A stretch of 64,000 nt of DNA from Sphingorhabdus sp. EL138 (GTDB lineage Bacteria; Pseudomonadota; Alphaproteobacteria; Sphingomonadales; Sphingomonadaceae). The position numbers and the translations under genes are program-made. The DNA is taken from assembly GCF_945862485.1 (NCBI RefSeq), contig NZ_CAMAYF010000002.1, positions 1 through 64,000 of the forward strand, given 5' to 3'. This document shows positions 43,119 through 63,925 of the stretch, piece by piece. Below the pieces are notes generated by a model. It made no database searches and was not told where the DNA came from. It saw nothing but the letters and a program-made list of their open reading frames with translations. The first letter of the stretch is position 1, and each line of letters opens with the position of its first letter.

Positions 43119-43207
43119 CTGTTTATACCCCCATCAGATGTATTTTGGGTAGCTGTCCGATGGGTCAGGTGCGTTGCAGATCGATGACAGTTTTCTTGCC
43201 ATCGACC

Positions 43208-46789: not shown

Positions 46790-46933
46790 GATATTTCCTT
46801 CCCTGATTGTGTTTGAACTGGCGCATTAGGGAAGCCGCGTGGCGTTTTGATGCGGTTATTATGTGGTTTTTGTAATAAATATATGTCTGAAATATTGCGG
46901 CTTTTTACAAATGATCCCGGCATTTTTTATTTC

Positions 46934-46951
46934 ATTACAATTTTATGACAT
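46934..46951 (-). promoter_or_regulatory. Candidate PHO box reading toward the TonB receptor-NPP operon
   Basis: On the minus strand the heptamers ATGTCAT and TTGTAAT are separated by AAAA, an 11-bp period as in PhoB sites (consensus CTGTCAT-N4-CTGTCAT). It lies 145 bp before the receptor start, which would imply a leader of roughly 100 nt. Confidence 0.5.
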
Positions 46952-46964
46952 TAATATAGCAAGA

Positions 46965-46982
46965 GTGTCATTAAAGTGTAAT
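46965..46982 (+). promoter_or_regulatory. Candidate PHO box reading toward the small repeat protein gene
   Basis: On the plus strand the heptamers GTGTCAT and GTGTAAT are separated by TAAA (11-bp period). It ends 27 bp before the ATG, which is close for a standard PhoB-activated promoter because the predicted transcript start would fall very near the ribosome-binding site. It may instead help regulate the divergent operon. Confidence 0.5.
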
Positions 46983-47009
46983 ATTGAATTCAGGATAAGG
47001 AGAGATGCT

Positions 47010-47458: not shown

Positions 47459-47635
47459 GTTATCTTAGCGCCATGGCCGAAATAATGGCCTTTTTACATT
47501 TTGTAATATTAAAGACGCAAAACTTTCTTCCAACTGCAATGCGATACGCACAGTCATGTCACAGGGGGCTTCTAACTCCCGCAGTGTCAACGGGTGGGGC
47601 CTATGTTGATTCGTCGCTGGTCCGTTGCATCTGCC

Positions 47636-47641: not shown

Positions 47642-47673
47642 CGGGCAAGTCATATTTGTTGCGGAGATTAAGA

Positions 47674-49254
47674 ATGTTAAACCCAAAATTGCGCGGGATC
47701 GTATATGCGACAGCAGCAGCCGTCCTTGTAACTGGTTGTGGCGCTGATGATATCGCGTCGCCAGGCACCGGTGGTAACATCACCATCAACAACCCAGCCG
47801 CTCCTCCTCCGCCCCCACCCCCACCGCCGCCACCAGCAGGTGTTACGGCTGCAACAGGTTGCCCCACGATTGGTAACACAGTTCAGTTGACTGACGATGG
47901 CACGATCACTGGCCCAACGGGCACATATCGTGTTTGCACGTTGCCCTCAGTTCTAACAGCAAGCTCCACGCTCACGAAGGTTCCAGGCCTGTTGTATCGC
48001 CTTGGCGGTCGCGTTGATGTCGGAACGGACCAAGGACCAACCGAAGAAACCACCGATCCAACCGATGTAGTGCTGACAATTGCACCCGGCGTAGTCGTTT
48101 ACGGCGGGACCGGCGTGTCATGGTTGAATGTAAACCGCGGCAACCGTATCAGTGCGGTTGGCACGGCTGCGCTCCCGATCGTTTTTACCAGTCGCGACAA
48201 CGTGCTTGGTCTCAACTCTGACAGTTCGATTGGTCAGTGGGGCGGCGTAGTTCTTAACGGTCGTGCTCCAATTACTGATTGTGCGGCTCCGGCTGCTACG
48301 CCCGGCACGATTGATTGCGAACGTCAAGTTGAGGGCGCAGTTGATCCTGCTCGCTACGGTGGTGCAACATCGACAGATAACAGCGGTCGGATGAGCTTTG
48401 TCCAAATTCGTTTCTCTGGATTTGTGCTTTCGGGTAACTCCGAACTTCAGTCGCTCACGACTGGTGGGACCGGCTCAGGTACCATTCTGAACAATATCCA
48501 GTCGTTCAACAGCTCCGACGATGGTGCCGAGTTCTTCGGTGGCACTGTGAACATGAAGTATTTCGTGTCTATTGGCGCTGACGATGACAATCTCGATACC
48601 GATGTTGGCGTTAAGGCGAACTTCCAATATGTGTTGGCCGTTCAACGTCAGGGTGCCGGCGACTCGATGATTGAAGCTGACTCAGACAACACGGTCGATG
48701 GGAATACGCCACGTCAGAACACACGCCTGTCGAACTTTACTTTCATTCAGCGCAACAACACCGGTAACGGGGTTTCAATGTTGCTTCGCGGTGGTACAGA
48801 TTACAGCATGTTCAATGGCGTTGTAGTCAGCCCATCGGTTACATGTTTGCGTATCAGTAGAGCTCAAACGGCCGCAACCACAGCCGATGCCTCGATTGAT
48901 GAGGCTGGCGCACCAGTGTTTCGTTCAGTGGTGATGCAATGCGGAACGCCTGCCTTTGCAGGGGCAAATACCGTAACTGAGGCTCAAGTCAGTGCTATCT
49001 TCGGTTCGGGTAGCAACGGCAATAACAGCGCGTTCACGCCAACTCTCACATCGTTGTTCATCAACGGTGCAAGTGAAACGGCAGTGGCGGCATTCAACGC
49101 AAGCACCATCGCATCTTATTTCGACGCTACAACCTATATTGGTGCTGTGAAAGATGCGAACGACACTTGGTACGCGGGTTGGACTTGCAACAGTGCTACC
49201 GCCTCTCTTGGTACCAGCGTCACTGGTCTTTGCACCTCGCTCCCTACCTTTTGA
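47674..49254 (+). CDS. Large surface lipoprotein, ElpS-like
   Basis: 526 residues. The signal peptide ends in a lipobox LVTGC (lipidated Cys22). The residue after the cysteine is Gly, so outer-membrane sorting is expected. A polyproline run (about 43-54) acts as a spacer. The body is beta-rich with motifs such as SIGQWGGVVLNGRAPI, DNSGRMSFVQIRFSG, SDDGAEFFGGTV and ADDDNLDTDVG, suggesting a beta-helix. The family recurs beside TonB receptors. In Caulobacter a lipoprotein of this kind, ElpS, is made on phosphate starvation, encoded next to a TonB receptor and a T2SS, and released in a T2SS-dependent way. Assignment as ElpS-like rests on context and recollection. Confidence 0.65.
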   Translation: MLNPKLRGIVYATAAAVLVTGCGADDIASPGTGGNITINNPAAPPPPPPPPPPPAGVTAATGCPTIGNTVQLTDDGTITGPTGTYRVCTLPSVLTASSTLTKVPGLLYRLGGRVDVGTDQGPTEETTDPTDVVLTIAPGVVVYGGTGVSWLNVNRGNRISAVGTAALPIVFTSRDNVLGLNSDSSIGQWGGVVLNGRAPITDCAAPAATPGTIDCERQVEGAVDPARYGGATSTDNSGRMSFVQIRFSGFVLSGNSELQSLTTGGTGSGTILNNIQSFNSSDDGAEFFGGTVNMKYFVSIGADDDNLDTDVGVKANFQYVLAVQRQGAGDSMIEADSDNTVDGNTPRQNTRLSNFTFIQRNNTGNGVSMLLRGGTDYSMFNGVVVSPSVTCLRISRAQTAATTADASIDEAGAPVFRSVVMQCGTPAFAGANTVTEAQVSAIFGSGSNGNNSAFTPTLTSLFINGASETAVAAFNASTIASYFDATTYIGAVKDANDTWYAGWTCNSATASLGTSVTGLCTSLPTF

Positions 49255-49328: not shown

Positions 49329-52016
49329 ATGAAAATGTTGAAGCCATTCGGGGCAATCAGCCTGTTGCTTTTAACGTCCGCACTTGTTTCGCCATCGATG
49401 GCATTCGCGCAAAGCGCTGAGCCTGCGGCATCAGAACCAACGCCAGAAGGCGCAGCCACGGAAACCGCAGATGAGCCGGTGGAAGAAGAAGTTGATGTCT
49501 CCTTCGGTGGTGAGGAAATTGTTGTCCGTGGATATTTGGATCGCAATATCTCAAAAAATGCAGCGCAAGTTGTGTCGGTTCTGTCATCCGCAGATATTGA
49601 ACGGACGGGCGAAGGCGATATTGCCGGTGCTCTCTCCCGCGTAACCGGGCTGAGCGTCGTTGGCGGCGGTTTTGTTTATGTGCGTGGTTTGGGAGATCGC
49701 TACTCTTTGGCATTGCTGAACGGTTCGCCATTGCCGAGCCCTGAACCTCTGAAACGCGTTGTTCCCCTTGATCTGTTCCCGACCAGCGTAATTGCTTCGT
49801 CACTTGTGCAGAAAACCTATTCCGCCAACTTCCCTGGCGAATTTGGCGGTGGTGTTATCAACCTGACCACTAAGGCTATTCCGCGCGAAACATTTCTGAC
49901 GGTGAGTGCGGACGCTAGCGGCAACGGCGAAACAACCAATCAGCTCGGCTACACATATTATGGTAGCTCATCCGATTGGAGCGGCTTTGACAATGGGAAT
50001 CGTGATCTGAAGCCAGCCTTGGCGGGTTATCTCGCCAGCGGAAATCGCATCAGTACCGGCGGCGTGGATACGAAGGCCATCGCAGGCCAGTTGGTGACAG
50101 GACGCAATGCCGTAGTGCAGCGCGACAATAATCTGCCAGCTAATGGTTCTGCAAATATTACTGGTGGCACCAATTTCGAAATCGGTGACGATGCCACATT
50201 GGGTATCTTATTCAACGCAGGCTACAGTAACAAATGGCGCACACGCGACACGCTGCAGCAAACCGCGTCGACGGCTGATTTGAGCCAGAAAGAAGCTGAT
50301 TTTCAGAAAGTTATAACGGACAACCGCCTCGTTGTTAACGGTCTGGTTGGCTTTGGCATTGAAGCGGGCGAGCAAAAGGTCCGTTGGACCAATGTCTTTA
50401 TCCGCGACACGTTGAAACAAGCGCGGTTAGGGATTGGTACACGCCAGACGACATCGCCTACTGCTACATTGTTGCAGCAGGACACGGCATGGTATGAGCG
50501 GCAGTTGATTAATTCGCAACTTGTTGGCGAATTCAAGCTATCGCCTGAGGTGAACTTCAGCTTCCGTGCCGGCTTTGCCAATTCAAAGCGGGAAGCGCCT
50601 GATGAATTCAGTTTTGAATATTATCGCAGTAACCAAGCGTCAGATCCTTTTGGACAGGTTTTCATCAACCGGCTGAACAACGGACAGCAGGGTAGTGCTG
50701 AGGTAAGTTATTCTTACCTAGAAGAGGATCTTTGGTCGGGAAGTGCCGATTTGTCGTTCAAGATTACGCCTGATATGACTGGTACGGTTGGTTATGCTTA
50801 TGCTGATACCAAACGTCGGACCGAGCGTCGTGACTTTTTGTTTACTGCGCCAGGTGGGACACCAATCGTTTCGGCACTGTTCCGTCCGGATTTCTTGCTG
50901 CAGCCGGATGTGATAAATTTTTACAATATCGCACTGATCGACACCAACGAAGCAAACCCGGTATTTGATGCCGGATTGCTTACCCATGCTGGTTATGGCC
51001 AGATTCAGGCATTCATTACGCCTGAAATCAGCCTGAACATCGGTGTACGTTACGAAAAGGCGACGCAATCTGTTGCCCCGGTTCAGGTTTTCACTGTGCC
51101 TACGGCGTCGTTAGCCTCCACCAATCTTGACCGTGCATATTGGTTGCCCGCCGCGACATTGACGTGGGACATTAATGACCAAATGAAATTCCGTGTAAGC
51201 GGGTCAAAGACAATTGCCCGTCCGCAATTCCGCGAACTGATTTTCCAGAATTTCTATGACACCGATTCCAACCGCTTGTTCCGCGGGAACCCGTTTTTGA
51301 CTGACAGCCAATTGTATAACGCAGAAGCGCGGTACGAATGGTATTTCGATCGTGACCAACGCTTTACAGTTGCGGCATTCTTCAAACGAATTGACAGTCC
51401 CATCGAGTCCTTCTCTAGTTTTGATGATAACTCGGTCGTAACCAGCTTTGCCAATGCGCCAAAGGCTGATTTGTACGGTGTAGAAATCGAAACGCAGAAA
51501 TATTTCGACCTGTCAGGCTTAGGTGAAGAGGGTTTCTTCTCGACCCGCCGCGTTGTGGCTATCGCGAATTACACCTACACACAGTCAAAGCTGAGCGTGA
51601 AGACAGGCGACCCCGTTGCTGTGTTCAACTCAACCTCAACAAGCGCGCTCGACTACTTCACTGATGGTTCGCCGTTGACTGGCCAGTCAGATCATCTTGT
51701 CAATCTGCAATTTGGGTTGGAAGACACCGAACGTTTGTCACAGCAGACCATATTGTTAACATACGCAACCGACCGAGTCACCAGCCGAGGCGCATCGGGA
51801 CAACCCGACATCAAGGAACGCCCTGGCATCCAGTTAGATTTTGTTGCGCGTGAAGGCTTCAAGCTTGGTGGCAAGGAAGCCGAATTGAAGTTTGAACTGC
51901 GCAACCTAACCAACACAAGGTATCAGGAGCGGCAGGAAAGCGGTAAAAACGTGATTTTCTACAACCGCTACAAGCAGGGTATCAGTGCCTCAATTGGCGT
52001 CGAACTGAACTTTTAA
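49329..52016 (+). CDS. TonB-dependent receptor partnered with the surface lipoprotein
   Basis: 895 residues. Signal peptide to about 30 (SMAFAQS), a Glu/Ala/Pro-rich stretch, a TonB-box-like EEIVVRGY, then a plug of the type YVRGLGDRYSLALLNGSPLP...VVPLDLFPTS...YSANFPGEFGGGVINL, and a barrel ending in ASIGVELNF. The plug type is the one I associate with ElpS-like lipoprotein neighbours. Like SusC-SusD pairs, the lipoprotein could cap or feed this receptor. ATG 49335 has better spacing to AAGGG than 49329. Confidence 0.9.
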   Translation: MKMLKPFGAISLLLLTSALVSPSMAFAQSAEPAASEPTPEGAATETADEPVEEEVDVSFGGEEIVVRGYLDRNISKNAAQVVSVLSSADIERTGEGDIAGALSRVTGLSVVGGGFVYVRGLGDRYSLALLNGSPLPSPEPLKRVVPLDLFPTSVIASSLVQKTYSANFPGEFGGGVINLTTKAIPRETFLTVSADASGNGETTNQLGYTYYGSSSDWSGFDNGNRDLKPALAGYLASGNRISTGGVDTKAIAGQLVTGRNAVVQRDNNLPANGSANITGGTNFEIGDDATLGILFNAGYSNKWRTRDTLQQTASTADLSQKEADFQKVITDNRLVVNGLVGFGIEAGEQKVRWTNVFIRDTLKQARLGIGTRQTTSPTATLLQQDTAWYERQLINSQLVGEFKLSPEVNFSFRAGFANSKREAPDEFSFEYYRSNQASDPFGQVFINRLNNGQQGSAEVSYSYLEEDLWSGSADLSFKITPDMTGTVGYAYADTKRRTERRDFLFTAPGGTPIVSALFRPDFLLQPDVINFYNIALIDTNEANPVFDAGLLTHAGYGQIQAFITPEISLNIGVRYEKATQSVAPVQVFTVPTASLASTNLDRAYWLPAATLTWDINDQMKFRVSGSKTIARPQFRELIFQNFYDTDSNRLFRGNPFLTDSQLYNAEARYEWYFDRDQRFTVAAFFKRIDSPIESFSSFDDNSVVTSFANAPKADLYGVEIETQKYFDLSGLGEEGFFSTRRVVAIANYTYTQSKLSVKTGDPVAVFNSTSTSALDYFTDGSPLTGQSDHLVNLQFGLEDTERLSQQTILLTYATDRVTSRGASGQPDIKERPGIQLDFVAREGFKLGGKEAELKFELRNLTNTRYQERQESGKNVIFYNRYKQGISASIGVELNF

Positions 52017-52039: not shown

Positions 52040-52076
52040 CGGCGGCATGTTGTATTCAACGTGCCGCCGTTGTTTT
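52040..52076 (+). terminator. Rho-independent terminator after the second TonB receptor
   Basis: A 13-bp stem (52040-52052 with 52057-52069, one G-U pair, TATT loop) is followed by TTGTTTT. It isolates the receptor transcript from the type II secretion operon, which therefore needs its own promoter. Confidence 0.85.
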
Positions 52077-52103
52077 ATGTATCGTACATGCTGTTGGGCT
52101 TGA

Positions 52104-52143
52104 GTGTCACGAAACTGTCATTTTAAATTCACTTTTAAGTCAC
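52104..52143 (+). promoter_or_regulatory. Four-repeat PHO box array in front of the gsp operon
   Basis: Four heptamers follow each other with four-base AT-rich spacers: GTGTCAC, CTGTCAT, AATTCAC, AAGTCAC, at 52104, 52115, 52126 and 52137 (11-bp period throughout). This is the arrangement of the double PHO box before E. coli pst genes, and the first pair is close to consensus (CTGTCAT-N4-CTGTCAT). The array ends 49 bp before the gspC start, leaving room for a -10 element (around 52150-52158), a short leader and the AAGGGGG ribosome-binding site. It sits after a terminator, exactly where a gsp promoter is needed. Confidence 0.8.
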
Positions 52144-52192
52144 AACGCCGTCTTAGTCCGACATCAAAGGGCGGAATCGCCAAGGGGGTTTT

Positions 52193-53011
52193 GTGGCTGG
52201 ATCATTGGCTGAAAGGGTAAGGGCGCAATCTCGTGCGTTTTCTCTGCCGCCAATCGGCAATGTGCTTATTGCACTTATGTTTATCCTTTTGGCTATTCAA
52301 GTCGCCCGTCTTTTTTGGGTCGTTGTTACACCGGTTGGTCCGCTTGCCGGATGGCGTGCGCCGTCGGTCAATATTGTTTCACAGTCCGGTCGACTTGCGC
52401 TTTTTAGCGGTTTTGATCCTTTTTACCGCAACGATACGTCCGCTGCGACCACGCAAAATGTCACATCGTTAAATCTGGTTTTGTTCGGCGTGCGCACCAA
52501 TGAAAGCTCGGGCGGCGGATCCGCCATTATTGCCGGTGAGGATGGTGTCCAGAATAGTTTTGCCATGGGTGAAGAAGTCGCGCCGGGCGTGACTTTGGAC
52601 GCTATTGCCTTTGACCATGTGATATTGTCGCGCGGCGGCGTGAAGGAATCGCTGTATTTGGATCAGTCTGTTCCAGCGGAAACGGTGAGCCCGTCTGAAG
52701 TAACGCCGCAGGCCGCACCCGCTGCGTCCGATACAGGAGGACTGAATGCCCAAACGCTGCAAAAAGCCATTGGCTTTGCGCCCCGTAACGAAGGGGGCAG
52801 GGTAACCGGCCTTGTTTTGAAAGCCCAGGATGATGGGACAATGCTTAAGCTCGCCGGATTTCAAGCTGGCGATATCGTTGTTGCCGTCAATGGTCGTCCC
52901 GTCTCATCCGCCACGGATGTCATCGCCCAATTTCGCCCCGGAGCGCGGATAAGCGTCGAAATCGAACGCGGCGGTTCAAAAGTCCCCATCGCTTTAAATC
53001 TGGAACAATAG
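52193..53011 (+). CDS. gspC: Type II secretion system protein GspC
   Basis: Inner-membrane clamp of the T2SS that links the inner platform to the secretin. 272 residues: one membrane segment (near 22-44), a periplasmic HR domain (FYRNDTSAATTQNVTSLNLVLFGVRTNE) and a C-terminal PDZ domain (LKLAGFQAGDIVVAVNGRPV). The start is GTG with AAGGGGG upstream. It is the first gene of the operon. Its TAG overlaps the GTG start of gspD. Confidence 0.9.
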   Translation: MAGSLAERVRAQSRAFSLPPIGNVLIALMFILLAIQVARLFWVVVTPVGPLAGWRAPSVNIVSQSGRLALFSGFDPFYRNDTSAATTQNVTSLNLVLFGVRTNESSGGGSAIIAGEDGVQNSFAMGEEVAPGVTLDAIAFDHVILSRGGVKESLYLDQSVPAETVSPSEVTPQAAPAASDTGGLNAQTLQKAIGFAPRNEGGRVTGLVLKAQDDGTMLKLAGFQAGDIVVAVNGRPVSSATDVIAQFRPGARISVEIERGGSKVPIALNLEQ

Positions 53012-55197
53012 TGATCCGTAAATTCTCCTTATGGTTGGCGTGCAGCACGCTTATTTTTACCACGCCAGTGGCCGCGCAGCAGACATTGAATGTCCGCGAC
53101 GCCGACATCCGCGCTTTTGTGCAAGACGCCGCGCGCGTCACTGGGCAAACGTTCATCGTCGATGGCCGCGTTACGGGTAAGGTTTCGGTTGTGACCGACC
53201 GTCCATTGTCGCGTTCGGAATATTTCGAAGTGTTTTTGTCGACTTTGCGTGCAAATGGCCTTGTCGCCATTCCCATGCGCGGGGGGGGATATCGCATTCA
53301 GCCGTCCGATGGCGCCGCAACGCAGCCAACGCGCGTAGGCAGCCGGGCCGAGTCTGCCAGCCAGTTTGTAACCGAAGTGTTCCGCTTGCGGTCGATTGAC
53401 GCGGCCACAGCCGTAGAAACGTTGCGTCCATTAATCAGCCGGGAAGGCTCGCTAACGGCGAACCGCAGCGCAAATAGCCTTGTGGTGGCGGATTATGCCG
53501 ACAATATCCGTCGGATCCGCGATCTTATCCGCCAAATTGACCGCGACAGTGCGGCCACCCAGATTGTGACGTTAGACAATGCAGGCGCACGCGAAATTGC
53601 GACGGCATTGCAAGGATTGGCTGGCCAAGGCGGCGGCGAAGGCGCGCGCACGTCTGTCTCCATCGCGGCTATCGACAGCAGTAACGCAATAGCGTTGCGC
53701 GGCGACCCGACATCCGTTGCTCGCTTTGCCGAGATGGCGAAGCAATTAGATGCCCGTGCGCAATCAGGGTCGGAAATTCGGGTGTACCGGCTTGAGCATG
53801 CGAACGCCGAAACTTTGCTAGAAACGGTCCAGTCACTGATTGGCGGACAAAGCGGTGGTGCGCGGGGCAGCGACATGCCGTCCGTGGCTGCACCTGCAAA
53901 TGGCGGAGCGCCAGCTGCTTCATCCGCACCAATCGTTGCGACATCCACGGGCGGTGGCACAAACAGCATTGGCGGACGCGGGCCTATTGTTGTGACGCGT
54001 TATGAAGGTACAAATGCCCTCATCGTCGCTGCCAATCCGGACGTGCAGCGAAGCTTGGGCGAATTGATCCGGCAATTGGACACACGGCCTGAACAGGTTC
54101 TGGTGGAAGCCATTGTGGTGGAAATCGGCAATGAGGCTGCCAAAAAGCTTGGCGTTCAATTCCTTGTAGGCGGCAAGGATGCCCCATTTGCGGCAACCAA
54201 TTACACGAATGCTACGCCCAACATCCTGACCATAGCAGGGGCCGTTGGAGCTGAGGAGCTGACGCGGACAACGACGACTATTAATGGCAATACCACCACC
54301 ACCGCTACTAACAGTGCATTGGGCGATGGTTTGCAGCAAGCCGCTGCAGCATCTATTTTGAACGCAACGGGCGGTTTTGGCGGCTTTGCGCTAGATATCG
54401 GTAAAAATGCGATTTTTGGCACAATCATCAACGCAATTGCAGCGGATACGGAATCCAACCTTTTGGCGACGCCGCATATTGTGACGTTGAACAATCAAAA
54501 GGCGAAGTTCCTGGTCGGTCAGGAAGTGCCAGTCAGCACGGGCGAACAATTGTCCGCCAACTTCGAAAATGCATTCCGCACCGTGCAGCGGCAGGAAGTC
54601 GGCATCAAGCTTGAGGTCACGCCACAGGTCAATGCGCAAGGCGATGTGAAGCTGTTCCTCAAGCAAGAAGTGTCCAGCGTTGCTGGACCTGTATCTTCGC
54701 GCTCTAACGACCTTGTCCTCAACAAACGCGAATTCGAGACGACATTGACTGTCGGCGACGGCCAATTGTTGGCGATAGGCGGGCTGCTTAACGATGACGA
54801 GCGCCGCACGATTGAGCGTATTCCATTGCTCAGCGACATTCCCCTTATTGGGGAGCTGTTTAAGTCGCGCAGCCGCAGCCGCAGCAAAACCAACCTAATG
54901 GTGTTCATTCGGCCTACAATCTTGCGGAGCCGGCAAGATGGTGATCGATTGACCGGGCGCCGTTATGATTATGTGCGCGACATGCAACGGCTGCGTAATC
55001 CGGATATGGAGCCGAGCATCGATGAGTTGCTGCGCGACTATATGGGCGCCACCCCGCCAACGGACCCAAATGCGCGGGCAAGCGACATTATGATCGGCGC
55101 AGACGGCAATCTGATGCGGCCGGCAGCAGATGGGCCGCTTAAACCCTCAGATGTGCCTGCGAGCGCCATATCGGCTAATATTGGGGATGGGCAATAA
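53011..55197 (+). CDS. gspD: Type II secretion system secretin GspD
   Basis: Outer-membrane channel. 728 residues: a signal peptide ending VAAQQ, the N0 domain (LNVRDADIRAFVQDAARVTGQ), N1-N3 domains with a Gly/Ser/Ala-rich loop near 280-320, and the secretin core (LLATPHIVTLNNQKAKFLVGQEVPV and VGIKLEVTPQVN). Near the end is the FKSRSRSRSKTNLMVFIRPTI segment. GTG start at 53011; the TAA overlaps the gspE ATG. Confidence 0.96.
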   Translation: MIRKFSLWLACSTLIFTTPVAAQQTLNVRDADIRAFVQDAARVTGQTFIVDGRVTGKVSVVTDRPLSRSEYFEVFLSTLRANGLVAIPMRGGGYRIQPSDGAATQPTRVGSRAESASQFVTEVFRLRSIDAATAVETLRPLISREGSLTANRSANSLVVADYADNIRRIRDLIRQIDRDSAATQIVTLDNAGAREIATALQGLAGQGGGEGARTSVSIAAIDSSNAIALRGDPTSVARFAEMAKQLDARAQSGSEIRVYRLEHANAETLLETVQSLIGGQSGGARGSDMPSVAAPANGGAPAASSAPIVATSTGGGTNSIGGRGPIVVTRYEGTNALIVAANPDVQRSLGELIRQLDTRPEQVLVEAIVVEIGNEAAKKLGVQFLVGGKDAPFAATNYTNATPNILTIAGAVGAEELTRTTTTINGNTTTTATNSALGDGLQQAAAASILNATGGFGGFALDIGKNAIFGTIINAIAADTESNLLATPHIVTLNNQKAKFLVGQEVPVSTGEQLSANFENAFRTVQRQEVGIKLEVTPQVNAQGDVKLFLKQEVSSVAGPVSSRSNDLVLNKREFETTLTVGDGQLLAIGGLLNDDERRTIERIPLLSDIPLIGELFKSRSRSRSKTNLMVFIRPTILRSRQDGDRLTGRRYDYVRDMQRLRNPDMEPSIDELLRDYMGATPPTDPNARASDIMIGADGNLMRPAADGPLKPSDVPASAISANIGDGQ

Positions 55198-56753
55198 TGA
55201 CAGGTTCGCAAGGAACGTTGGAACGACAGGGCGCGACTGGCGCCGAACCCAGCGCGCCCGTTACTGTTGCCCAAGTCACGCCGTTGCTGGACCTACCTTA
55301 TGCCTTTGCCAAGGCGTATGGCTTGGTTTTGCGTCATGAGAGCAATGACCGTTTAATCGTCGCGATGCGCGAAGGTGCAGATCCGGTCATGCTGCTCGAA
55401 GTGCGGCGCTATTTGGCCATGCCATTCGATGTTGAAATAGTCGATAACCAGACCTTTGACCGGTATCTGTCCGACCATTATGCCATGGACGGAAGCGCAG
55501 CGGCCATGGCTGGTTCGATCGGCCCTAACGACGGCGATCTTCTGTCCGATATGTTACCAAGTGTCGATGATTTGCTCGACAGCGCAGATGACGCCCCGGT
55601 TATTCGGCTGATTAACGGCGTCATTGCAGAGGCTGTACGGCAAGGTGTTTCGGATATTCATATCGAGCCGTATGAAACGGGCCTTGTGATACGCATGCGC
55701 GCCGATGGCGTGTTGCAGGAACGGCTTCGGCTCCCCGCCAATGTTGCGCCTGTGGTCGTCAGCCGCATCAAGGTCATGGCACGTTTGGACATTGCCGAAC
55801 GCCGCATTCCGCAAGACGGTCGTATTGGGCTGACGCTTGGCGGAAAGATGGTTGATGTGCGTGTGTCGACCTTACCCAGTCGCGCTGGCGAGCGCGTCGT
55901 CATGCGTATCTTGGATAATGAAAATGCCGGGATTTCGCTCGATTTGCTGGGCATGTCCGACGAGACCCTAAAAATCTTGCGCAAGGCATTGGCTGAACCC
56001 AATGGTATCATCTTGGTTACGGGCCCCACCGGATCGGGGAAGACTACCACGTTATATGCTGGCCTGAAGCGGCTCAATGACGGTTCCCGCAACATTTTGA
56101 CGGTCGAAGACCCGGTGGAGTATGCCGTTGAAGGCATTGGCCAGACGCAGGTGAATGCGAAAGTCGGTATGACCTTTGCCGCTGGTCTGCGGGCGATTTT
56201 GCGGCAGGATCCTGACGTCGTCATGGTCGGCGAAATCCGCGACCGTGAAACCGCCGATATTGCCGTGCAAGCGGCGCTTACCGGCCATTTGGTACTGACA
56301 ACGGTGCACACAAATGATGCGCTGGGTGCCATCACGCGTATGCGCGATATGAAGGTGGAGCCCTTCCTGCTGGCCTCGACCCTGCGTGCCGTCATCGCGC
56401 AGCGGCTTGTGCGCCGCCTGTGTCCGCATTGCCGCCAGACGGTTCAGGCAGATGGCAACGCAGCATCCTTGCTTGGTTTTGATAAGGGCACGGCTGTTTA
56501 CAAAGCAGTCGGTTGCCCTGAATGCAACAACACTGGCTTTTTGGGCCGCATCGGTGTGTTTGAGGCCGTTCGTGTAGACGACACCATCCGCCGGTTAATC
56601 AATGACGGCGGTGATGAAGCCATATTGGCGCGACATGCTTTTGTGAACCAACCCAATTTGAGTGCCGCCGCGCGCAAATTGGTGCGTAGCGGGGACACAA
56701 CCCCAGAGGAGGCTATCCGCATTTCCCGCCGTGAAGACATTGTTGATGCCTGA
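55197..56753 (+). CDS. gspE: Type II secretion ATPase GspE
   Basis: Cytoplasmic hexameric ATPase that powers pseudopilus assembly. 518 residues: an N-terminal GspL-binding domain, Walker A GPTGSGKTTTLY (near 277), the Asp box, Walker B RQDPDVVMVGEIRD and the His box GHLVLTTVHTND. A four-cysteine zinc module (CPHC ... CPEC) near 410-450 is typical of GspE. It overlaps gspD by one base and gspF by 8 nt. Confidence 0.97.
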   Translation: MTGSQGTLERQGATGAEPSAPVTVAQVTPLLDLPYAFAKAYGLVLRHESNDRLIVAMREGADPVMLLEVRRYLAMPFDVEIVDNQTFDRYLSDHYAMDGSAAAMAGSIGPNDGDLLSDMLPSVDDLLDSADDAPVIRLINGVIAEAVRQGVSDIHIEPYETGLVIRMRADGVLQERLRLPANVAPVVVSRIKVMARLDIAERRIPQDGRIGLTLGGKMVDVRVSTLPSRAGERVVMRILDNENAGISLDLLGMSDETLKILRKALAEPNGIILVTGPTGSGKTTTLYAGLKRLNDGSRNILTVEDPVEYAVEGIGQTQVNAKVGMTFAAGLRAILRQDPDVVMVGEIRDRETADIAVQAALTGHLVLTTVHTNDALGAITRMRDMKVEPFLLASTLRAVIAQRLVRRLCPHCRQTVQADGNAASLLGFDKGTAVYKAVGCPECNNTGFLGRIGVFEAVRVDDTIRRLINDGGDEAILARHAFVNQPNLSAAARKLVRSGDTTPEEAIRISRREDIVDA

Positions 56754-57963
56754 ATTTGCCTATCACGCTATTGATCCTGACGGGCGCGAGCGGCACGGAC
56801 GGATATCCGCCGCCAATGATGATCTGGCGCGCGAAGCCTTAGTGGCAAAAAAACTTTATATTGTTCATGTTGCGCCTGCCGAAGTGCGTGCGTCGGCCTT
56901 TGCTAGTCTGCCGCTGAAACGGCAGCCACGGTTGAACGCAAAGCAGCTAACGTTGTTCACGCGGCAATTGTCCTCATTGGCGCAAGTATCGCCCTTGGAA
57001 GAGGCGCTACGAACAATTAGCCGGCAAAGCGAACAACCCCATGTACGTCAAATATTGATCGGTGTTCACACGGGCGTGGTAGAAGGCCAGCGCTTGTCCG
57101 ACGCTATGCGACGCGAAAGCCACAGCTTTCCACCCTTGTATCGCGCAATGATCGCGGCAGGTGAGGGCGCTGGTACATTGCCGCTGATCACCGAACGGCT
57201 TGCTGTGTTGCTCGAACGGCAAGCGGAGATGCGCGGTAAGTTGATTGGCGCGCTTGCTTATCCGGCAATTTTGTCGCTCGTCGCGATGCTGGTGGTGATG
57301 GGGTTGATGGTGTCTGTCGTGCCGCGCGTGGTCGAACAATTCGACAATGTGGATCAACAACTGCCTTTGATCACGCGGGTGGTGATTGGCATTTCGGCAT
57401 TTTTGGCGAGCTATTATTGGGTGCTGATCATTGTCTTTGTGCTTGGTGCAATCGTCTTTGCGCAAGCGTTGAAGCAACCCGCTTTTCGTCTGGCGGTCGA
57501 CCGCAATATCCTGCGCATTCCGGTGCTTGGAAAGCTTTTGCGCAACCTGCATGCCGCGCGCATGGCGCGGACACTTGCCACAATGGTTGCAAGCCGCTTG
57601 CCCTTGTTGGAAGGCTTACGCCTGACAGGCGGCACCATTCGCAATAAAGTGTTATCTGCGGCCAATGACGGAATTGTGGAATCCGTGCGTAGCGGGGGCA
57701 GCCTTTCCGGCGCAATGCGCGCCAGCGGCGTTTTCCCGCCCTTGCTCGTGTATTTGGCGGCCAGTGGCGAGAGCGCAGGGCAGTTGGATATCATGCTGGA
57801 ACGTGCCGCAGAATATTTGGAACGCGAATTTGATACCTTTACCAGCACCGCTTTGTCGTTGCTTGAACCCTTGATCATTGTCGCCATGGGCGGCGTGGTC
57901 GCTGTCATCATATTGGCAATATTGCTGCCTATCCTTCAACTTCAAAACCTTACGGGACTGTAG
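56746..57963 (+). CDS. gspF: Type II secretion inner-membrane platform protein GspF
   Basis: 405 residues with three membrane segments and two repeated cytoplasmic GspF domains (LTLFTRQLSSLAQVSPLEEAL and MARTLATMVASRLPLLEGLRL, each followed by a GEGAGTLP/GESAGQLD signature). The start is MPEFAYHAIDPDGRERHG at 56746; a longer frame upstream lies inside gspE. It is the platform that contacts GspE, GspL and the pseudopilus. Confidence 0.96.
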   Translation: MPEFAYHAIDPDGRERHGRISAANDDLAREALVAKKLYIVHVAPAEVRASAFASLPLKRQPRLNAKQLTLFTRQLSSLAQVSPLEEALRTISRQSEQPHVRQILIGVHTGVVEGQRLSDAMRRESHSFPPLYRAMIAAGEGAGTLPLITERLAVLLERQAEMRGKLIGALAYPAILSLVAMLVVMGLMVSVVPRVVEQFDNVDQQLPLITRVVIGISAFLASYYWVLIIVFVLGAIVFAQALKQPAFRLAVDRNILRIPVLGKLLRNLHAARMARTLATMVASRLPLLEGLRLTGGTIRNKVLSAANDGIVESVRSGGSLSGAMRASGVFPPLLVYLAASGESAGQLDIMLERAAEYLEREFDTFTSTALSLLEPLIIVAMGGVVAVIILAILLPILQLQNLTGL

Positions 57964-57965
57964 AC

Positions 57966-58439
57966 ATGCGCCGCCTATTATTTAATCTTCTGACTGATAC
58001 CCGTCGTGCACCCGCCAGGTTCCGGCGAAAGGCGGTGAAAGTCGAACGCAATGGTTTCACCCTAGTTGAAATGATGGTGACTTTGTTCATTTTGGCGCTG
58101 TTGACAACGATAGTGGCCATCAACGTGCTCCCCAATCAGGACAAGGCCATGGTGCAAAAGGCACGGGCAGATATCGCCGTTTTGGGTCAAGCGATGGAAA
58201 CCTATCGCCTTGATAATTTGACCTACCCTGATGCAGGTGCTGGTTTGCAGGCGTTGGTCACGCCGCCGACGACCGGAGGGCGGAGTGAAGGCTATATCAA
58301 GAAACTGCCGACGGACCCTTGGAACCGACCATATCAGTATAGCCTGCCTGGAAAGAGCGGCGCCTTTGACATCTATTCGCTGGGTGCCGATGGTGCGCCT
58401 GGCGGTGAGAATGAAAATGCCGACATTTACGGCGACTAG
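57966..58439 (+). CDS. gspG: Major pseudopilin GspG
   Basis: 157 residues as annotated. The prepilin cleavage site is G|FTLVEMM with Glu at +5, then a long hydrophobic helix and the C-terminal calcium-site region (LPTDPWNRPYQY, then DIYSLGADGAPGGENENADI). From the ATG at 57966 the leader would be 30 residues, unusually long. A GTG at 58035 would give a 7-residue leader of normal size, but AAAGG is only 2 nt upstream of it. Mature protein is the same either way. Confidence 0.93.
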   Translation: MRRLLFNLLTDTRRAPARFRRKAVKVERNGFTLVEMMVTLFILALLTTIVAINVLPNQDKAMVQKARADIAVLGQAMETYRLDNLTYPDAGAGLQALVTPPTTGGRSEGYIKKLPTDPWNRPYQYSLPGKSGAFDIYSLGADGAPGGENENADIYGD

Positions 58440-58905
58440 GCCGTCCTTCCGTAAAATCGTTCCGGATAATGCGCGCGGCTTCAGCTTAGTGGAGCTGATG
58501 GTCGTATTGTTCATCATCGGTATTGCGAGCACGGCCGTTGTCATGACCGTTCGCTCGTCCGAGCGCGGTGTGCATGATGAAGCAGAGCAATTTGCCGCCC
58601 GCGTGGCCGCCTTGCGCGATAACGCCATATTGCAATCGCGTACCATGGCCGTCACTGTGCGTCCGTCGGGTTATGGCTTTGAAACACGCAATGATGGGAG
58701 CTGGGTGCCGATGTCCGAAGCCCCATTTTCAACAACCGAGTGGAAAAGTGGCACAAGAGTTCAGATGTCCGGCGCCCGTCAGATGCGGATAGCCTTTGAT
58801 AGCACTGGTCTGCCATCGAGCGCGGCCAGTATCGAGATCAAACATGACAATGAAACCGTCACGCTAAAGCTCGCAGCAACCGGGGACATTCGCGTTGTCC
58901 GTTAA
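58411..58905 (+). CDS. gspH: Minor pseudopilin GspH
   Basis: 164 residues. Prepilin site ARG|FSLVELMVVLF with Glu+5, then the globular GspH domain (RVAALRDNAILQSRTMAVTVRPSGYGFE). The start ATG at 58411 overlaps the end of gspG by 29 nt; ATG 58417 is equally possible. It overlaps the TTG start of gspI. Confidence 0.88.
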   Translation: MKMPTFTATRPSFRKIVPDNARGFSLVELMVVLFIIGIASTAVVMTVRSSERGVHDEAEQFAARVAALRDNAILQSRTMAVTVRPSGYGFETRNDGSWVPMSEAPFSTTEWKSGTRVQMSGARQMRIAFDSTGLPSSAASIEIKHDNETVTLKLAATGDIRVVR

Positions 58906-59278
58906 GTCCTCATTACCGCGCAATGGCTTCACGCTTTTGGAAATCATGGTTGCGCTGGCCATTTTCAGCCTCGCGGCATTGGCTATGGTGCGCTTGCAAG
59001 GATATTCGGTACGCTCGACATCAAATTTGGGCGATAGCAATATGGCGTGGCAAGTAGCCCGCAACGTGGCGGTGGATATATTATCCAACCCCACGCCGCC
59101 AACTCTCGGCGAAACGCGCGGCGAAGAATTAAACGGCGGCCAAAATTGGAAATGGACGGCCACAACGCGTTCCACTGATGACAGCCGTTTGGTGACAGTC
59201 GAGATCAATGTTGTCGGAGCCGGCAACGCTGCATTGCGCACGGCGCGGCTGACGATTGCAAGGCCTGTTGAGCAATGA
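58895..59278 (+). CDS. gspI: Minor pseudopilin GspI
   Basis: 127 residues. Prepilin site RNG|FTLLEIMVALAIF with Glu+5 and the conserved LSLAALAMVRLQ-type helix. The start appears to be TTG at 58895, inside the last codons of gspH (11-nt overlap); no ATG or GTG lies close before the cleavage site. The stop overlaps the gspJ ATG. GspI starts the pseudopilus tip complex with J and K. Confidence 0.87.
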   Translation: MSVKSSLPRNGFTLLEIMVALAIFSLAALAMVRLQGYSVRSTSNLGDSNMAWQVARNVAVDILSNPTPPTLGETRGEELNGGQNWKWTATTRSTDDSRLVTVEINVVGAGNAALRTARLTIARPVEQ

Positions 59279-59919
59279 CCAAATTACGAGATTCGGAGGC
59301 AGGGTTTACCCTTATCGAACTGCTCGTGGCGCTTGCGATTTTTGCGCTGATTTCGGTGGCCGGTGTCATGTTGCTGCGTTCCAGCAGCGATACCCAAATC
59401 GCCGTAAAGAAGCGTCTTGAAGAAATGGCATTGTCGCATCGCGTGGCCAATAGCCTTGAAGGTGACCTAGCGCAGGTGATCGCGCGGCCCGTGCGAGATC
59501 AATCCGGCCAGCCTATTCCTGCCTTCACCCAAGGAGAGGCAAGCGTTCCCGGTGCGCTATTTGGCTTTGTCCGGGCAGGGTGGTCCAACTTTGACACAAC
59601 ACCAAGGGCAGGGCTACAACGCGTCGCTTATGTGTTGGAGGGCGGCATGCTCAAGCGATTAAGTTGGCCCATGCTCGACGGAACATCCCCCATAGATGCC
59701 GCTGTCCTGTTGGAGGATGTAACGTCTGCAACGGTCGAATTTCGTGATGATACCGGTGTTTGGCGCGATGATTGGACTGCGACTGATGCGGATGCTTTGC
59801 CGCGCGCCATTGCCTTAAACGTTAATTCGGCGGGCAAAACCGAGCAACGTATGCTTTTCCTGGTTGGACCACAAACACGCGTTCCACCTCCGAGCATTGA
59901 AACGGACGTTGCGGAATGA
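59275..59919 (+). CDS. gspJ: Minor pseudopilin GspJ
   Basis: 214 residues. Prepilin site SEAG|FTLIELLVALAIF with Glu+5, then a beta-rich domain (FGFVRAGWSNFDTTPRAGLQRVAYVLE), as in GspJ. It overlaps gspI and gspK by 4 nt each. Confidence 0.9.
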   Translation: MTKLRDSEAGFTLIELLVALAIFALISVAGVMLLRSSSDTQIAVKKRLEEMALSHRVANSLEGDLAQVIARPVRDQSGQPIPAFTQGEASVPGALFGFVRAGWSNFDTTPRAGLQRVAYVLEGGMLKRLSWPMLDGTSPIDAAVLLEDVTSATVEFRDDTGVWRDDWTATDADALPRAIALNVNSAGKTEQRMLFLVGPQTRVPPPSIETDVAE

Positions 59920-60902
59920 TGCGGCAAAAGCCTTCAGAACGCGGCGCCGCCTTGCTGTCGGTCTTGCTTATGGTGGCGGTGCTGGCCGTGATTGCTGCAA
60001 CGACGCTTGACCGGTTGAGTTTATCGAGCAAATTGTCGGCCAACGGAAACGCGCTGGCGCAGGCACGGCTGTTTACATACGCGACCGAGGCGATTGCCGC
60101 TGCGCGTATTGAGGACCTGGTTGCACGCGATGCCGCGCAAACAACCTTATCGGGGGATTGGCTAGGCAAGCCGCAAACTATTCCCATTCCTATAGGGTCT
60201 GCTACCGCTTTCGTGCGCGATGCTGGCAATTGTTTCAATCTCAACAGTCTGGTGACCGAAAATGAAGGTCGATACTTGGCCAGTGCGACAGGCCAAGACC
60301 AGATGACGTCTTTATTGGTAGTGTTGGGCACGAATGAAAACACCGCGCGTGTTATTGTGGCGGCGGCAGCCGATTGGGCGGACAGCGACATTATGCCTTT
60401 ACCAAATGGCGTCGAGGATGATGGCTATCGTTCTGCGGCGACGCCGTATCTCGTGGCGAACAGGCCGTATGCCCATCCAAGCGAGCTGCGCGCGGTTAAG
60501 GGGGTAACTCCTGCTATCTATGCGAAGTTGCAGGATTGGATCTGCGCGCTCCCCGATCCGGTTTTATCGCCGTTGAACGTCAACACCTTGCTACCCGAAC
60601 AAGCACCATTGCTGGCAATGCTATTCCCACCCGGCAAGATGAATTTGACCGCCGCACGCAGCTATCTCGCCAAGCGGCCATCAAGTGGCTATGGCAGCCT
60701 CATTCGATTCTGGGCGGCGCCGGAAATTGCCGCGCTGGAACCGTCTCCTCTAGTTCAAGGGCAGGTAAAACTGACGAGCAATTACTTCCTTCTGAACACA
60801 AATGTGTCATTTGGCGAACTCAAGCTTGCCGGACAATCGATGATTGTCGCGTCACCTGCGCCTGCGCGTGTTGTCTGGCGCAGTTGGGGGGAAGAGGAAT
60901 GA
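59916..60902 (+). CDS. gspK: Minor pseudopilin GspK
   Basis: 328 residues, much larger than the other pseudopilins, as usual for GspK. Prepilin site SERG|AALLSVLLMVAVL without Glu at +5, a known feature of GspK, which caps the tip. The large domain contains AAADWADSDIMPLPNGVEDDGY and RPYAHPSELRAVKGV. A 4-nt overlap joins it to gspL. Confidence 0.93.
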   Translation: MMRQKPSERGAALLSVLLMVAVLAVIAATTLDRLSLSSKLSANGNALAQARLFTYATEAIAAARIEDLVARDAAQTTLSGDWLGKPQTIPIPIGSATAFVRDAGNCFNLNSLVTENEGRYLASATGQDQMTSLLVVLGTNENTARVIVAAAADWADSDIMPLPNGVEDDGYRSAATPYLVANRPYAHPSELRAVKGVTPAIYAKLQDWICALPDPVLSPLNVNTLLPEQAPLLAMLFPPGKMNLTAARSYLAKRPSSGYGSLIRFWAAPEIAALEPSPLVQGQVKLTSNYFLLNTNVSFGELKLAGQSMIVASPAPARVVWRSWGEEE

Positions 60903-61984
60903 CATTGGTCATTACGCGTTTCCCGATATCTGAGCGGGACGATCCGACGGTTTTTCGGGTGATTGAGGGCGTTTGGCAGGATGCAGGTGCGCTCTCCAAT
61001 TTCGTACCGATGGTTGACGATCTAACTGTGATGGCGCTTGTTGCACCGGAGGATGTCCGGTGTCAGTGGTTCATGCTGCCCGATGTGCAAGGGCGTCAGG
61101 CCGAAAGTGTGGCGAAACTGCGCGCAACCGAACAATCGCTTGGCCTTGTGCACTGCAGCGCTGGTACAGATTATGACGACGTGGTTGCTACAGCAACTAT
61201 CGCGTCAGAGGTTATGCAGGTTGGGTTGGATGCGCTAAGCGCGCGCGGTCTCAACCCCGACATCGTCCTGCCCTTTGCATTGTCACTGTCTGTTCATTCG
61301 GATGGCATATCCAAGGCGGAAATGGACGGCTTGTCCGTCCTGCGCGGCACGCAATTTGCAATACCTGACGACGCCGTGCTGCGCGATCTATTGATACGCG
61401 ACGCGCATATAGAAAATGTTGATGCCGACGCCCTTCGGTCTATGCTGATTTCCGCCAGCGCCGCGCCGTTGTTGAACTTGCGTGAGGGCAACTTCGCAAA
61501 ACGTGAGCGGGCGGTTTGGATAACCCCAGAGCAAAATATCTGGGTGCGACGGCTTTTGGCCGCACTCGTCATTGTGACAATGCTGGTTACGCTTGCGACC
61601 TTAGCGAAATATTGGACTGCAACCGCGTCGGAAAACAACGCCGCCTTGGCTGCGGCACAGAAGATTGATCCGGCTATCGAGGATATTGATCAGGCCGAAA
61701 GCATGCTGGCCGCGTCGCTGAATCGTCAGGGCAAAACACACGGCAGCTTCGCGCCGCTGTCCGCCGCCTTGTGGCGCAGTGTCAAGGCTTCACCGAATGT
61801 ATCCGTACGGGAATTGCGATATACGCCGGACGGCATATTGACCGTTGTTCTGGCGGCACCCACGGCGGATAATATTAACAAGGCTCTGGTGACCATTCAG
61901 CAGGACGGGTTCCGTATTACGGCAACTGCGCGGCAAGACACAACCGGTGCGACTTTGGTCGACATGACAGTGAGGATACCATGA
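60899..61984 (+). CDS. gspL: Type II secretion system protein GspL
   Basis: 361 residues. A cytoplasmic actin-like domain that binds GspE, one membrane segment (RRLLAALVIVTMLVTLATL, near 218-236) and a periplasmic ferredoxin-like domain. Sequence conservation is low in this family and the call leans on the operon position between gspK and gspM. The frame extends upstream to 60536 inside gspK; the ATG at 60899 overlapping the gspK stop is the natural start. Confidence 0.87.
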   Translation: MTLVITRFPISERDDPTVFRVIEGVWQDAGALSNFVPMVDDLTVMALVAPEDVRCQWFMLPDVQGRQAESVAKLRATEQSLGLVHCSAGTDYDDVVATATIASEVMQVGLDALSARGLNPDIVLPFALSLSVHSDGISKAEMDGLSVLRGTQFAIPDDAVLRDLLIRDAHIENVDADALRSMLISASAAPLLNLREGNFAKRERAVWITPEQNIWVRRLLAALVIVTMLVTLATLAKYWTATASENNAALAAAQKIDPAIEDIDQAESMLAASLNRQGKTHGSFAPLSAALWRSVKASPNVSVRELRYTPDGILTVVLAAPTADNINKALVTIQQDGFRITATARQDTTGATLVDMTVRIP

Positions 61985-62460
61985 TGGCGGCGATACGCTT
62001 ATGGTTTGCTGCCCTGACGCGACGGGAGCAATGTCTCGTTGGCATCGCCGGCGCACTGGCAGCAATTGTGGTGTCGATTTTCGGCATTTTACTTCCCATT
62101 GTTTCTGCCATTGAACAGGCAGGGATAGATCATGACGAGGCAGTTCAAAGGCGTGGGCGGATAATCGCTACGGTGGATGCCGCCCAGAAGCAGGAAACTA
62201 GGCCGCGTTCGACAGCAACTGCGGATATTGACCTGTTGATTACCCAAAGTGCCGCGGAAAAAGGATTTGATCTCGTCAAATCGGCCAATAGTGCACCAGG
62301 ACAAATCAGCTTCAAGATTGCTCAGGCACGGGCCCCAGCATTGCTCGCTTGGTTGACCGAGCTTGAGGGCCAGAATGTAGCTGTGCGCAGTGTCGCATTA
62401 CGACCCGGCGCAAACAGCACCGTAACGGTGGATGCCCAGTTGCAGATGAGCGCGCCATGA
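61981..62460 (+). CDS. gspM: Type II secretion system protein GspM
   Basis: 159 residues with a short cytoplasmic start (LTRREQCLVGIAGALA), a membrane segment near 20-43 and a periplasmic ferredoxin-like domain (ISFKIAQARAPALLAWLTELEGQNVAVRS). It partners GspL. 4-nt overlaps with gspL and gspN. Confidence 0.88.
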   Translation: MMAAIRLWFAALTRREQCLVGIAGALAAIVVSIFGILLPIVSAIEQAGIDHDEAVQRRGRIIATVDAAQKQETRPRSTATADIDLLITQSAAEKGFDLVKSANSAPGQISFKIAQARAPALLAWLTELEGQNVAVRSVALRPGANSTVTVDAQLQMSAP

Positions 62461-63152
62461 AGCGGCGCTTTGTTGTGACTTCGTTGGTAGCTCTGGCTGT
62501 TTCGGCTATTTTATTAATGCCCTTGCGAACGATCGTGGCTGGGGATGCGATAACCGCACGCAAGGTTGATGGTATCATTTGGGACGGGTCTATCCGTGAC
62601 TTGCGCCTTGGTAAAGTAGCCGTGGGCGACGTCAATGCACGTTTGTTGTTCTCGCCGCTGTTTATGGGCCGGGCGGAGATTTTGCTGTCGCGCGGTAACT
62701 CCCCATTTGTGCCAGGAATAAACGGGTCTGTATCCCGCGGTATAAGTGGTGTGTCGGTCAGCAATCTGTCTGCAACTTTGCCGGTGGGGGCGCTGTTCGC
62801 GCCGTTTCCTGCGGAGAATATCCAGCTTGAAGGCTTTTCTGCGCGTTTTGCCGATGGTAAGTGCATGAATGCTGGCGGGCAAGTCCGGTTGACTTTGTCC
62901 GACACTATACCGGGCCTTAACTTACAGAATGGTATGCTCGGTCAACCCCGCTGCGATGGCGCGCATTTATTACTGCCATTGGTCAGCCAATCCGCGATGG
63001 AGCGCGCGGACATCCGCTTGTTGGCAGATGGAAGTTACACCATGACCGTTATGCTTAATGCCGACCAAGGCGACCAAGCGGCGGCGTTGAGCCTCGCCGG
63101 CTTTCGTCCCGTAGATGGTGGCTACCGCTTAGTCCTAAAGGGCGGGTTCTGA
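62457..63152 (+). CDS. gspN: Type II secretion system protein GspN
   Basis: 231 residues with an N-terminal membrane segment (near 6-25) and a periplasmic beta-rich domain starting with the typical VDGIIWDGSIRDLRLGKV. GspN is present only in some T2SS and is not always essential. Its position after gspM supports the call. Confidence 0.85.
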   Translation: MKRRFVVTSLVALAVSAILLMPLRTIVAGDAITARKVDGIIWDGSIRDLRLGKVAVGDVNARLLFSPLFMGRAEILLSRGNSPFVPGINGSVSRGISGVSVSNLSATLPVGALFAPFPAENIQLEGFSARFADGKCMNAGGQVRLTLSDTIPGLNLQNGMLGQPRCDGAHLLLPLVSQSAMERADIRLLADGSYTMTVMLNADQGDQAAALSLAGFRPVDGGYRLVLKGGF

Positions 63153-63169
63153 TCGCGTTCCCACTGTCA

Positions 63170-63925
63170 TTGGACGATATGCTAAGCGCTTTGCCTTTTT
63201 GGTATCTGATCCTGCTCGCCATGATATTTGGCCTTATCTGGGGGAGCTTTATTGCGGCCCTGTGCAGTCGCTGGCCACGCGGCGAACGTGTGTCGGACGG
63301 TCGGTCGCATTGTGATCATTGCCAGACGAAACTTGGGGCAAAAGACCTCGTGCCCCTCATGTCTTATCTATGGCTGCGCGGCAAATGCCGACATTGTGGG
63401 CAATCCATAGGCATAAGTGTGCTCTATATTGAACTTGCTTCCGCCGCGATTGGTTTGTTTACAGTTTTATTCTTGTCGGGTTGTCAGGCACTGGCGTCGG
63501 CGGTGTTCGGTTGGCTATTACTTCCGCTCATCATTCTTGATTTTCAGAAGCTTTGGTTGCCGAATCGACTGGTTTTGACGCTGGCATTGGCGGGGGTATT
63601 CATTGGCCCATTTTTAACACCCGATGTTAACTGGCCTGACCGCATTTTGGGCGGGGTTTTCGGGTTTCTTGCATTGGAAGTGATCCGGCGGGCCTTTCGC
63701 AAGCTGCGTCACATAGAAGGCATGGGCGGGGGCGACCCAAAATTGTTCGGAGCCATTGGTCTCTGGCTCGGTTGGCAGGGATTGCCGATGACTTTGCTCT
63801 TGGCAACTCTAATTGGGTTTATGTGTATTGCGCTCGCCTTTGCGCTGTACAGAAACAGCCCCAAACAGCTCCCGTTCGGGGCATATATGGGAATGGCGGC
63901 CTTTGCGATTGTTTTGCTGGCTTAG
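63170..63925 (+). CDS. gspO: Prepilin peptidase GspO
   Basis: Membrane aspartic protease that cleaves and N-methylates the five pseudopilins upstream. 251 residues. The N-terminal cytoplasmic loop has two CXXC pairs (CDHC, CRHC). Catalytic aspartates lie in ILDFQKLWLPN and GMGGGDPKLFG. About seven membrane segments. The start is TTG 63170 or ATG 63179, with neither clearly better. It ends the gsp operon, 17 bp after gspN. Confidence 0.93.
   Translation: MDDMLSALPFWYLILLAMIFGLIWGSFIAALCSRWPRGERVSDGRSHCDHCQTKLGAKDLVPLMSYLWLRGKCRHCGQSIGISVLYIELASAAIGLFTVLFLSGCQALASAVFGWLLLPLIILDFQKLWLPNRLVLTLALAGVFIGPFLTPDVNWPDRILGGVFGFLALEVIRRAFRKLRHIEGMGGGDPKLFGAIGLWLGWQGLPMTLLLATLIGFMCIALAFALYRNSPKQLPFGAYMGMAAFAIVLLA

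Follow-up and report, generated by a model that had tools for sequence, protein, structure and literature searches.

A predicted four-repeat PhoB operator before the type II secretion operon of Sphingorhabdus sp. EL138

The gsp operon and the repeat array in front of it

The window, that is, the whole stretch of 64,000 nucleotides of Sphingorhabdus sp. EL138 that was analysed, holds a set of type II secretion genes (gspC-O) preceded on the same strand by genes for an ElpS-like putative lipoprotein and a TonB-dependent receptor (Table 1). The gspC-O genes overlap or are closely packed, and they are read as one operon, which would be transcribed as a single message. The products of gspD, E, F, G, I, J, K and L score above the NCBIfam cut-offs and that of gspH below, while GspC and GspO were assigned by Pfam; the two ORFs in the gspM and gspN positions gave no family match and were placed by position only. 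The window's GspE shares 97% identity with its counterpart in a Sphingorhabdus sp. MAG.

Directly in front of this operon lies an array of four heptamers, GTGTCAC (52104-52110), CTGTCAT (52115-52121), AATTCAC (52126-52132) and AAGTCAC (52137-52143), which are separated by the spacers gaaa, ttta and tttt, with exactly 11 bp between successive heptamer starts. The array is located between the stop of the TonB receptor gene (52016) with its terminator-like hairpin and the GTG start of gspC (52193), from which it is separated by 49 bp, and folding of positions 52017-52080 gives -28.6 kcal/mol with a z-score of -5.04. A rereading of the sequence thus agreed with the sequence-only reading, which had described four heptamers of this period with AT-rich 4-bp spacers, ending 49 bp before gspC and following the terminator of the preceding gene. 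The weak point of the array is the third repeat (AATTCAC), which scores -2.7 alone, although all 27 genus sequences keep its TCA.

The PHO boxes of E. coli are built in a similar manner, as CTGTCAT-N4 repeats at 11 bp, and four repeats in tandem are found before E. coli pstS. Nevertheless, what these boxes govern in E. coli is a phosphatase in the case of phoA and phosphate uptake in that of pstS, and not a secretion machine as proposed here.

Table 1. Features of the window discussed in the text, with strand and supporting detail
Feature	Position	Strand	Detail
PHO-like box before the PlcP-like phosphoesterase gene	43169..43190	-	72 bp before the gene; score 13.3
PHO box toward TonB receptor and phosphodiesterase genes	46930..46951	-	28.4, best two-repeat score of the window
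Divergent PHO box toward the TPR gene	46965..46986	+	20.3; likely ATG of the TPR gene at 47010
PHO-like array before the elpS-like gene (TTGTAAT/AAGACGC/CTTTCTT/CTGCAAT)	47501..47540	+	12.2; stronger in close relatives
ElpS-like putative lipoprotein	47656..49254	+	532 aa; likely ATG start 47674
TonB-dependent receptor	49332..52016	+	Counterpart of Caulobacter cc0171 by position and similarity
Terminator-like hairpin, 3' of the TonB receptor gene	52040..52069	+	13 pairs and T tail
Predicted four-repeat PHO operator of the gsp operon	52104..52143	+	11-bp period; pstS-matrix score; genus conservation
Predicted -10 (TAGTCC)	52154..52159	+	Begins 17 bp past the last-repeat start
gspC	52193..53011	+	PF11356 (T2SSC) and PDZ; GTG start
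gspD-L, two ORFs in gspM/gspN positions, A24 prepilin peptidase (GspO)	53011..63925	+	

Likeness to pstS promoters and conservation of the array

GspC was searched for in 149 genomes of the family, including that of EL138, and 54 relatives with an E value of 6.2e-20 or better were kept. The loci dropped ahead of the counts given in this text are L120 and L121 (weak GspC matches), L191 (partial match) and L186 (upstream region cut). A matrix trained on 25 of the 29 pstS sites of relatives, from which the organism's own pstS was excluded, reaches a score of at least 10 upstream of gspC in 33 of these 54 relatives, in one of 54 when the sequences are reverse-complemented and in none when they are reversed. 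Within the 4 kb before gspC, the forward boxes form a single peak, at -200 to 0. The converse is also observed: a matrix trained on gspC sites, with the window left out, scores at least 10 at 26 of 30 pstS loci (the best 30 among 147 matching genomes, EL138 included), in comparison with 7 and 5 of 30 in the reverse-complemented and reversed controls. In the genome of EL138, this matrix places its top site (24.3) upstream of pstS in a 19-kb phoR-pstSCAB-phoU-phoB stretch, where an array of the same kind as that of gspC is found.

The period of the repeats can also be recovered from simple word pairs. In the 170 bp before gspC of the 54 relatives, GT[CA]A pairs occur 44 times at a lag of 11, 22 times at 22 and 8 times at 33, while all other lags from 4 to 45 show 0-3 pairs and the reversed or reverse-complemented sequences at most 2 at any lag. 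When a matrix trained on one half of the relatives was applied to the other half, p was 0.005 or lower in 42 of 54 (200 shuffles each); the pstS-trained test is the cleaner of the two, because these halves consist of related species.

The pstS-trained matrix, with the own genome left out, assigns 22.4 to the site at 52104, a value exceeded in the 64 kb only by the site at 46951, and the array has the top four-repeat score among the 127,914 positions of both window strands. In the genome assembly of EL138 (2.18 Mb, 96.6% complete), the pattern TGTCAYN5TGTCAY has 36 matches with at most one mismatch, of which 35 carry one mismatch and the single perfect one is the gspC array; read backwards, the pattern gives 6 matches. 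Besides the gspC array, some candidate sites scoring 11-15 are found in the stretches of this genome scanned. The surroundings of the own phoD and phoX genes hold weak matches only (11.7 and 11.3), and the matrix scan finds no site of at least 10 around a second phoD.

Two TonB receptor genes elsewhere in this genome also have such sites nearby. On contig C11 (L124:7425), a strong double box (20.7) precedes a large TonB receptor gene, whose product we take to be Oar-like, and on contig C9 (L123:12480), PHO-like sites of about 15 are located close to the beginning of a TonB receptor gene, adjoining a divergent polyphosphate kinase gene.

Since gspC and pstS have one operator type, PhoB is the likely regulator of the array. 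A PhoR-PhoB system is present in the genome, encoded in the phoR-pst-phoU-phoB locus. It might be argued that another member of the OmpR/PhoB family binds these 11-bp GTCA-type direct repeats and that the operon answers a different signal, as other regulators of this family also use tandem half-sites at 11 bp and the PhoB model finds 12 matches in the genome, one of them above the family cut-off. However, this alternative is set aside as very unlikely because the pstS and gspC promoters share one matrix, each set finding the other; the phase of the -10 described below is also common to both kinds of boxes, and the boxes of E. coli phoA and pstS score high (19.8 and 26.8) with the matrix trained on sphingomonad pstS sites. 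The PHO-box reading of the repeats is therefore sustained, with PhoB as the likely regulator.

Conservation was followed more closely within the genus, in which GspC is present in 35 of 45 genomes, own included. The set compared comprises 26 of the 34 GspC-bearing relatives, leaving out five without a locus identifier, G137 (read in separate comparisons) and two lacking the upstream region; L268 and L289 were dropped from it. In all 26, the top-scoring four-repeat site (18.7-31.3) is located at -78 to -93 relative to gspC, and a TA follows at 17 bp, counted from the first base of the last repeat, so that with the window this TA is invariant in 27 of 27 sequences. The reverse-complemented control gives scores from -17.6 to 5.4 and the reversed one from -22.9 to 13.0, each with the TA in 1 of 26. 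The T[CA]A core is kept in all four repeats by 17 of the 26 relatives, in three by 5 and in two by 4. The GTCA cores have a mean column identity of 0.885, compared with 0.499 at the remaining positions of the heptamers, 0.605 in the spacers, and 0.334 and 0.445 in the upstream and downstream flanks; as the sequences had been aligned on their best motif register, these values are biased toward the motif. When five sequences were aligned with MAFFT, without use of the motif register, a TCA or GTC core was likewise invariant in each of the four repeats.

The same phase is found outside the genus. Among 36 family gspC boxes, a TA is found 25 times at an offset of 17, 28 or 39, counted from the first base of the last repeat detected, and 10 times in the next phase; for 26 pstS boxes, the corresponding figures are 17 and 6. 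In E. coli phoA, the -10 is located at the same distance, TATAGT beginning 17 bp from the last-repeat start. As the TA, or -10, keeps a fixed phase behind the repeats, these would, by analogy with phoA, stand in the place of the -35 element of an activated promoter, and TAGTCC is on the same grounds the predicted -10.

The abundance of double boxes with one mismatch and of sites scoring 11-15 in the genome might suggest that TGTCA words have simply come together by chance close to a promoter. Nevertheless, the conservation in the genus and the family is directional and locked in phase, and it disappears in the reversed and reverse-complemented controls. A chance origin of the repeats is refuted by this conservation and these orientation controls, and its probability is negligible. 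The absence of the repeats from relatives with the same operon had been named beforehand as an outcome that would count against a PHO operator; they are present in 26 of 26 genus relatives, and a box of at least two repeats is found in most of the family relatives examined. The assignment of the array as the promoter operator of the gsp operon likewise holds, given its position directly before gspC, its conservation and its pstS-like character.

The phosphate island and the distribution of the gspC box

The neighbourhood of the gsp operon is a phosphate island. Some 9 kb of it contain no fewer than five PHO-like sites, of which two have low scores (12.2 and 13.3) and one, the gspC array, had been noted in the sequence-only reading; in addition to gspC, PHO boxes precede the ElpS-like gene, the TonB receptor/TPR pair and the PlcP-like gene. 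Among relatives, a box of at least 10 is located before 40 of 55 elpS-like genes with a readable upstream region (controls, 4 and 3) and before 1 of 57 TonB genes, a distribution that fits an elpS-TonB operon. The ElpS-like protein and the TonB receptor are 39 and 41% identical to the pair encoded before gspC in the locus of a Caulobacter sp. MAG (L224), which has a box before gspC too (20.0). The lipoprotein-TonB receptor-gspC order resembles the elpS-cc0171-gspC-N order of Caulobacter, the comparison having been made with this MAG and not with C. crescentus.

The divergent pair of boxes between the TonB receptor/phosphodiesterase gene set and the TPR gene was scanned in 12 relatives with the TPR gene. 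Both boxes reach at least 22 in the four nearest (L065, L185, L187 and L188) and at least 14.8 in L084, and neither is found in 5 of the 12. By eye, these back-to-back boxes (46930-46986) show no evident -10 in the usual phase. The box of the PlcP-like gene scores 12.1-15.5 in 4 of 4 relatives scanned; L198 has the gene elsewhere in the locus.

The minus-strand stretch at 41170-43190 has a PHO-like box in front and encodes a calcineurin phosphoesterase of LpxH-like type and, after it, a GT4 glycosyltransferase. For the latter, the best match in NCBIfam is a glycolipid synthase, far below the cut-off. We take this pair to resemble the PlcP-Agt lipid-renovation pair of phosphate-starved bacteria.

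The gspC PHO box is not universal in the family: 18 of the 54 relatives show no gspC box reaching 9 with the pstS matrix. A wider view was obtained from a scan of named genomes with GspE, in which 80 of 590 confirmed stretches, among the matches listed, were kept and 14 named loci without a GspC match were dropped. Because these named sets may hold duplicate organisms, some of them also among the 54, the counts of the 54 genomes are the ones relied on. Among the alphaproteobacterial loci listed, 26 of 47 reach at least 10 (controls, 5 and 4). Such gspC boxes are seen in Sphingorhabdus, Sphingobium, Sphingopyxis, Polymorphobacter, Phenylobacterium and the Caulobacter sp. MAG; Croceicoccus and Pseudokordiimonas, which score on both strands, are doubtful cases. 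Only 1 of 16 loci without an alphaproteobacterial label reaches 10, in a score that includes a -10 bonus and a set that omits L228 (Lysobacter) and has 3 of its 16 loci labelled to phylum only.

Lineages without the box are found inside and outside the order. Among the named Sphingomonadales loci scanned, Rhizorhapis suberifaciens (L197) and three Sphingomonas (L212, L213 and L215) lack it before gspC, as do Aquisalinus, Eilatimonas, two Maricaulis and two Hellea among those from outside the order. A class-wide search with a GspC alignment gave four non-family genomes with near full-length matches, and a gspC box of at least 10 is present in none of the four. In some Sphingomonas (for example, L208, L214 and L219), degenerate repeats with a TA in the usual phase can be recognized by eye.

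Three further loci deserve mention. Rhizorhapis suberifaciens (L073/L197) has a good GspC match, but its fetched locus shows neither a gspC box nor an elpS-like gene, and it may have uncoupled secretion from phosphate. The gammaproteobacterium Lysobacter spongiae (L228) shows the elpS-TonB-gsp order with a borderline gspC box (11.2), a locus that is perhaps shared or transferred. The locus L200, labelled Microvirga sp. SRT01, has a GspE match of 70% and a GspC match, both sphingomonad-like, and its label may be wrong.

Phosphate starvation and type II secretion

As judged from the repeats and their relatives, the array is almost certainly a PhoB operator, and it is highly probable that it serves, with its four repeats, to raise gspC-O transcription at low phosphate. 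In this pathway, low external phosphate would cause PhoR to phosphorylate PhoB, and PhoB dimers would bind the 11-bp repeats head to tail, the repeats replacing the -35 element. RNA polymerase would then be recruited to the in-register -10, located 17 bp after the last repeat begins, so that PhoB would act by activation rather than repression and the transcription of the whole gspC-O operon would be raised. The secretion machine would in this manner be co-produced with phosphate scavenging and lipid renovation and with PhoB-driven exported proteins, the neighbouring ElpS-like lipoprotein first; the secreted substrates and the size of the induction are matters that we infer.

The connection between PhoB and type II secretion is not a new principle, since it has already been reported for Caulobacter, where transcriptomes assign to the PhoB regulon the type II system as well as phosphate-releasing enzymes and TonB receptors (PMC11208175). 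In C. crescentus, ElpS is made under phosphate starvation and its release depends on the type II system; the pair before gspC consists of cc0170 (ElpS) and cc0171, and the elpS-gsp gene order has also been noted in Sphingomonas alaskensis (PMC2996285). The gspO gene of C. crescentus is encoded on the opposite strand (PMC2996285), whereas here it follows gspN on the same strand. In addition, the sections consulted of PMC11208175 and PMC2996285 give no operator sequence for Caulobacter gspC, in contrast to the four-repeat array with a fixed -10 phase described here for Sphingomonadales. No report of a PhoB-type II link in sphingomonads appears among the matches listed from a largely open-licence literature.

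The sequence-only reading predicted that secretion is switched on by phosphate starvation, and "raised" is the safer word, because the gspE and gspL mRNAs of Caulobacter are present in rich medium and increase 1.7-fold in poor medium, while an mGFP-GspL protein is found at a similar level in both (PMC2996285). These data also speak for a rather unlikely alternative, compatible with a PhoB operator, in which PhoB only tunes a nearly constitutive operon and phosphate acts mostly through the supply of substrates. However, the forward boxes within the 4 kb before gspC peak only in the last 200 bp, the one sigma-70-like match in 51950-52250 (a scan for that promoter type) is on the minus strand, and the Caulobacter transcriptomes argue for membership of the PhoB regulon. 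A PhoB operator that raises transcription of the operon thus remains the preferred reading.

Pseudomonas offers further cases for comparison. The Hxc system resembles the one proposed here in being a type II system tied to phosphate-starvation exoproteins, and Xcp2 is another phosphate-linked type II system of this genus. In Pseudomonas fluorescens SBW25, which belongs to another lineage, the substrate gene psp is phosphate-regulated but hxcR is not induced by phosphate limitation (PMC2225411), unlike the reading favoured here and in the direction of the tuning alternative.

More broadly, it can be tentatively postulated, as a scenario that is quite possible while falling short of probable, that type II secretion in Sphingomonadales and Caulobacterales was ancestrally a phosphate-starvation machine. 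A single PhoB circuit would drive elpS-TonB and gsp and, in this genus, the scavenging and lipid-renovation genes of the island, from multi-repeat operators kept at a fixed 11-bp phase relative to the -10; the number of repeats may set the dose, and the lineages without boxes would have rewired secretion to other cues. A great age of the PhoB-gsp link is made less likely by the boxless loci of Maricaulis, Hellea, Aquisalinus and Eilatimonas.

The present analysis contributes the location of the operator, how widely it occurs and the constant phase of its -10, in a new order for a known link; as Caulobacter had already provided the principle, the gain is one of breadth and precision rather than of mechanism. 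Together, the operator and its phase constitute a ready predictor of Pho genes for the order. They also provide a testable rule, according to which many sphingomonads with a type II system should raise protein export when phosphate is low, and this rule predicts both the timing of enzyme release and which secreted proteins to seek.
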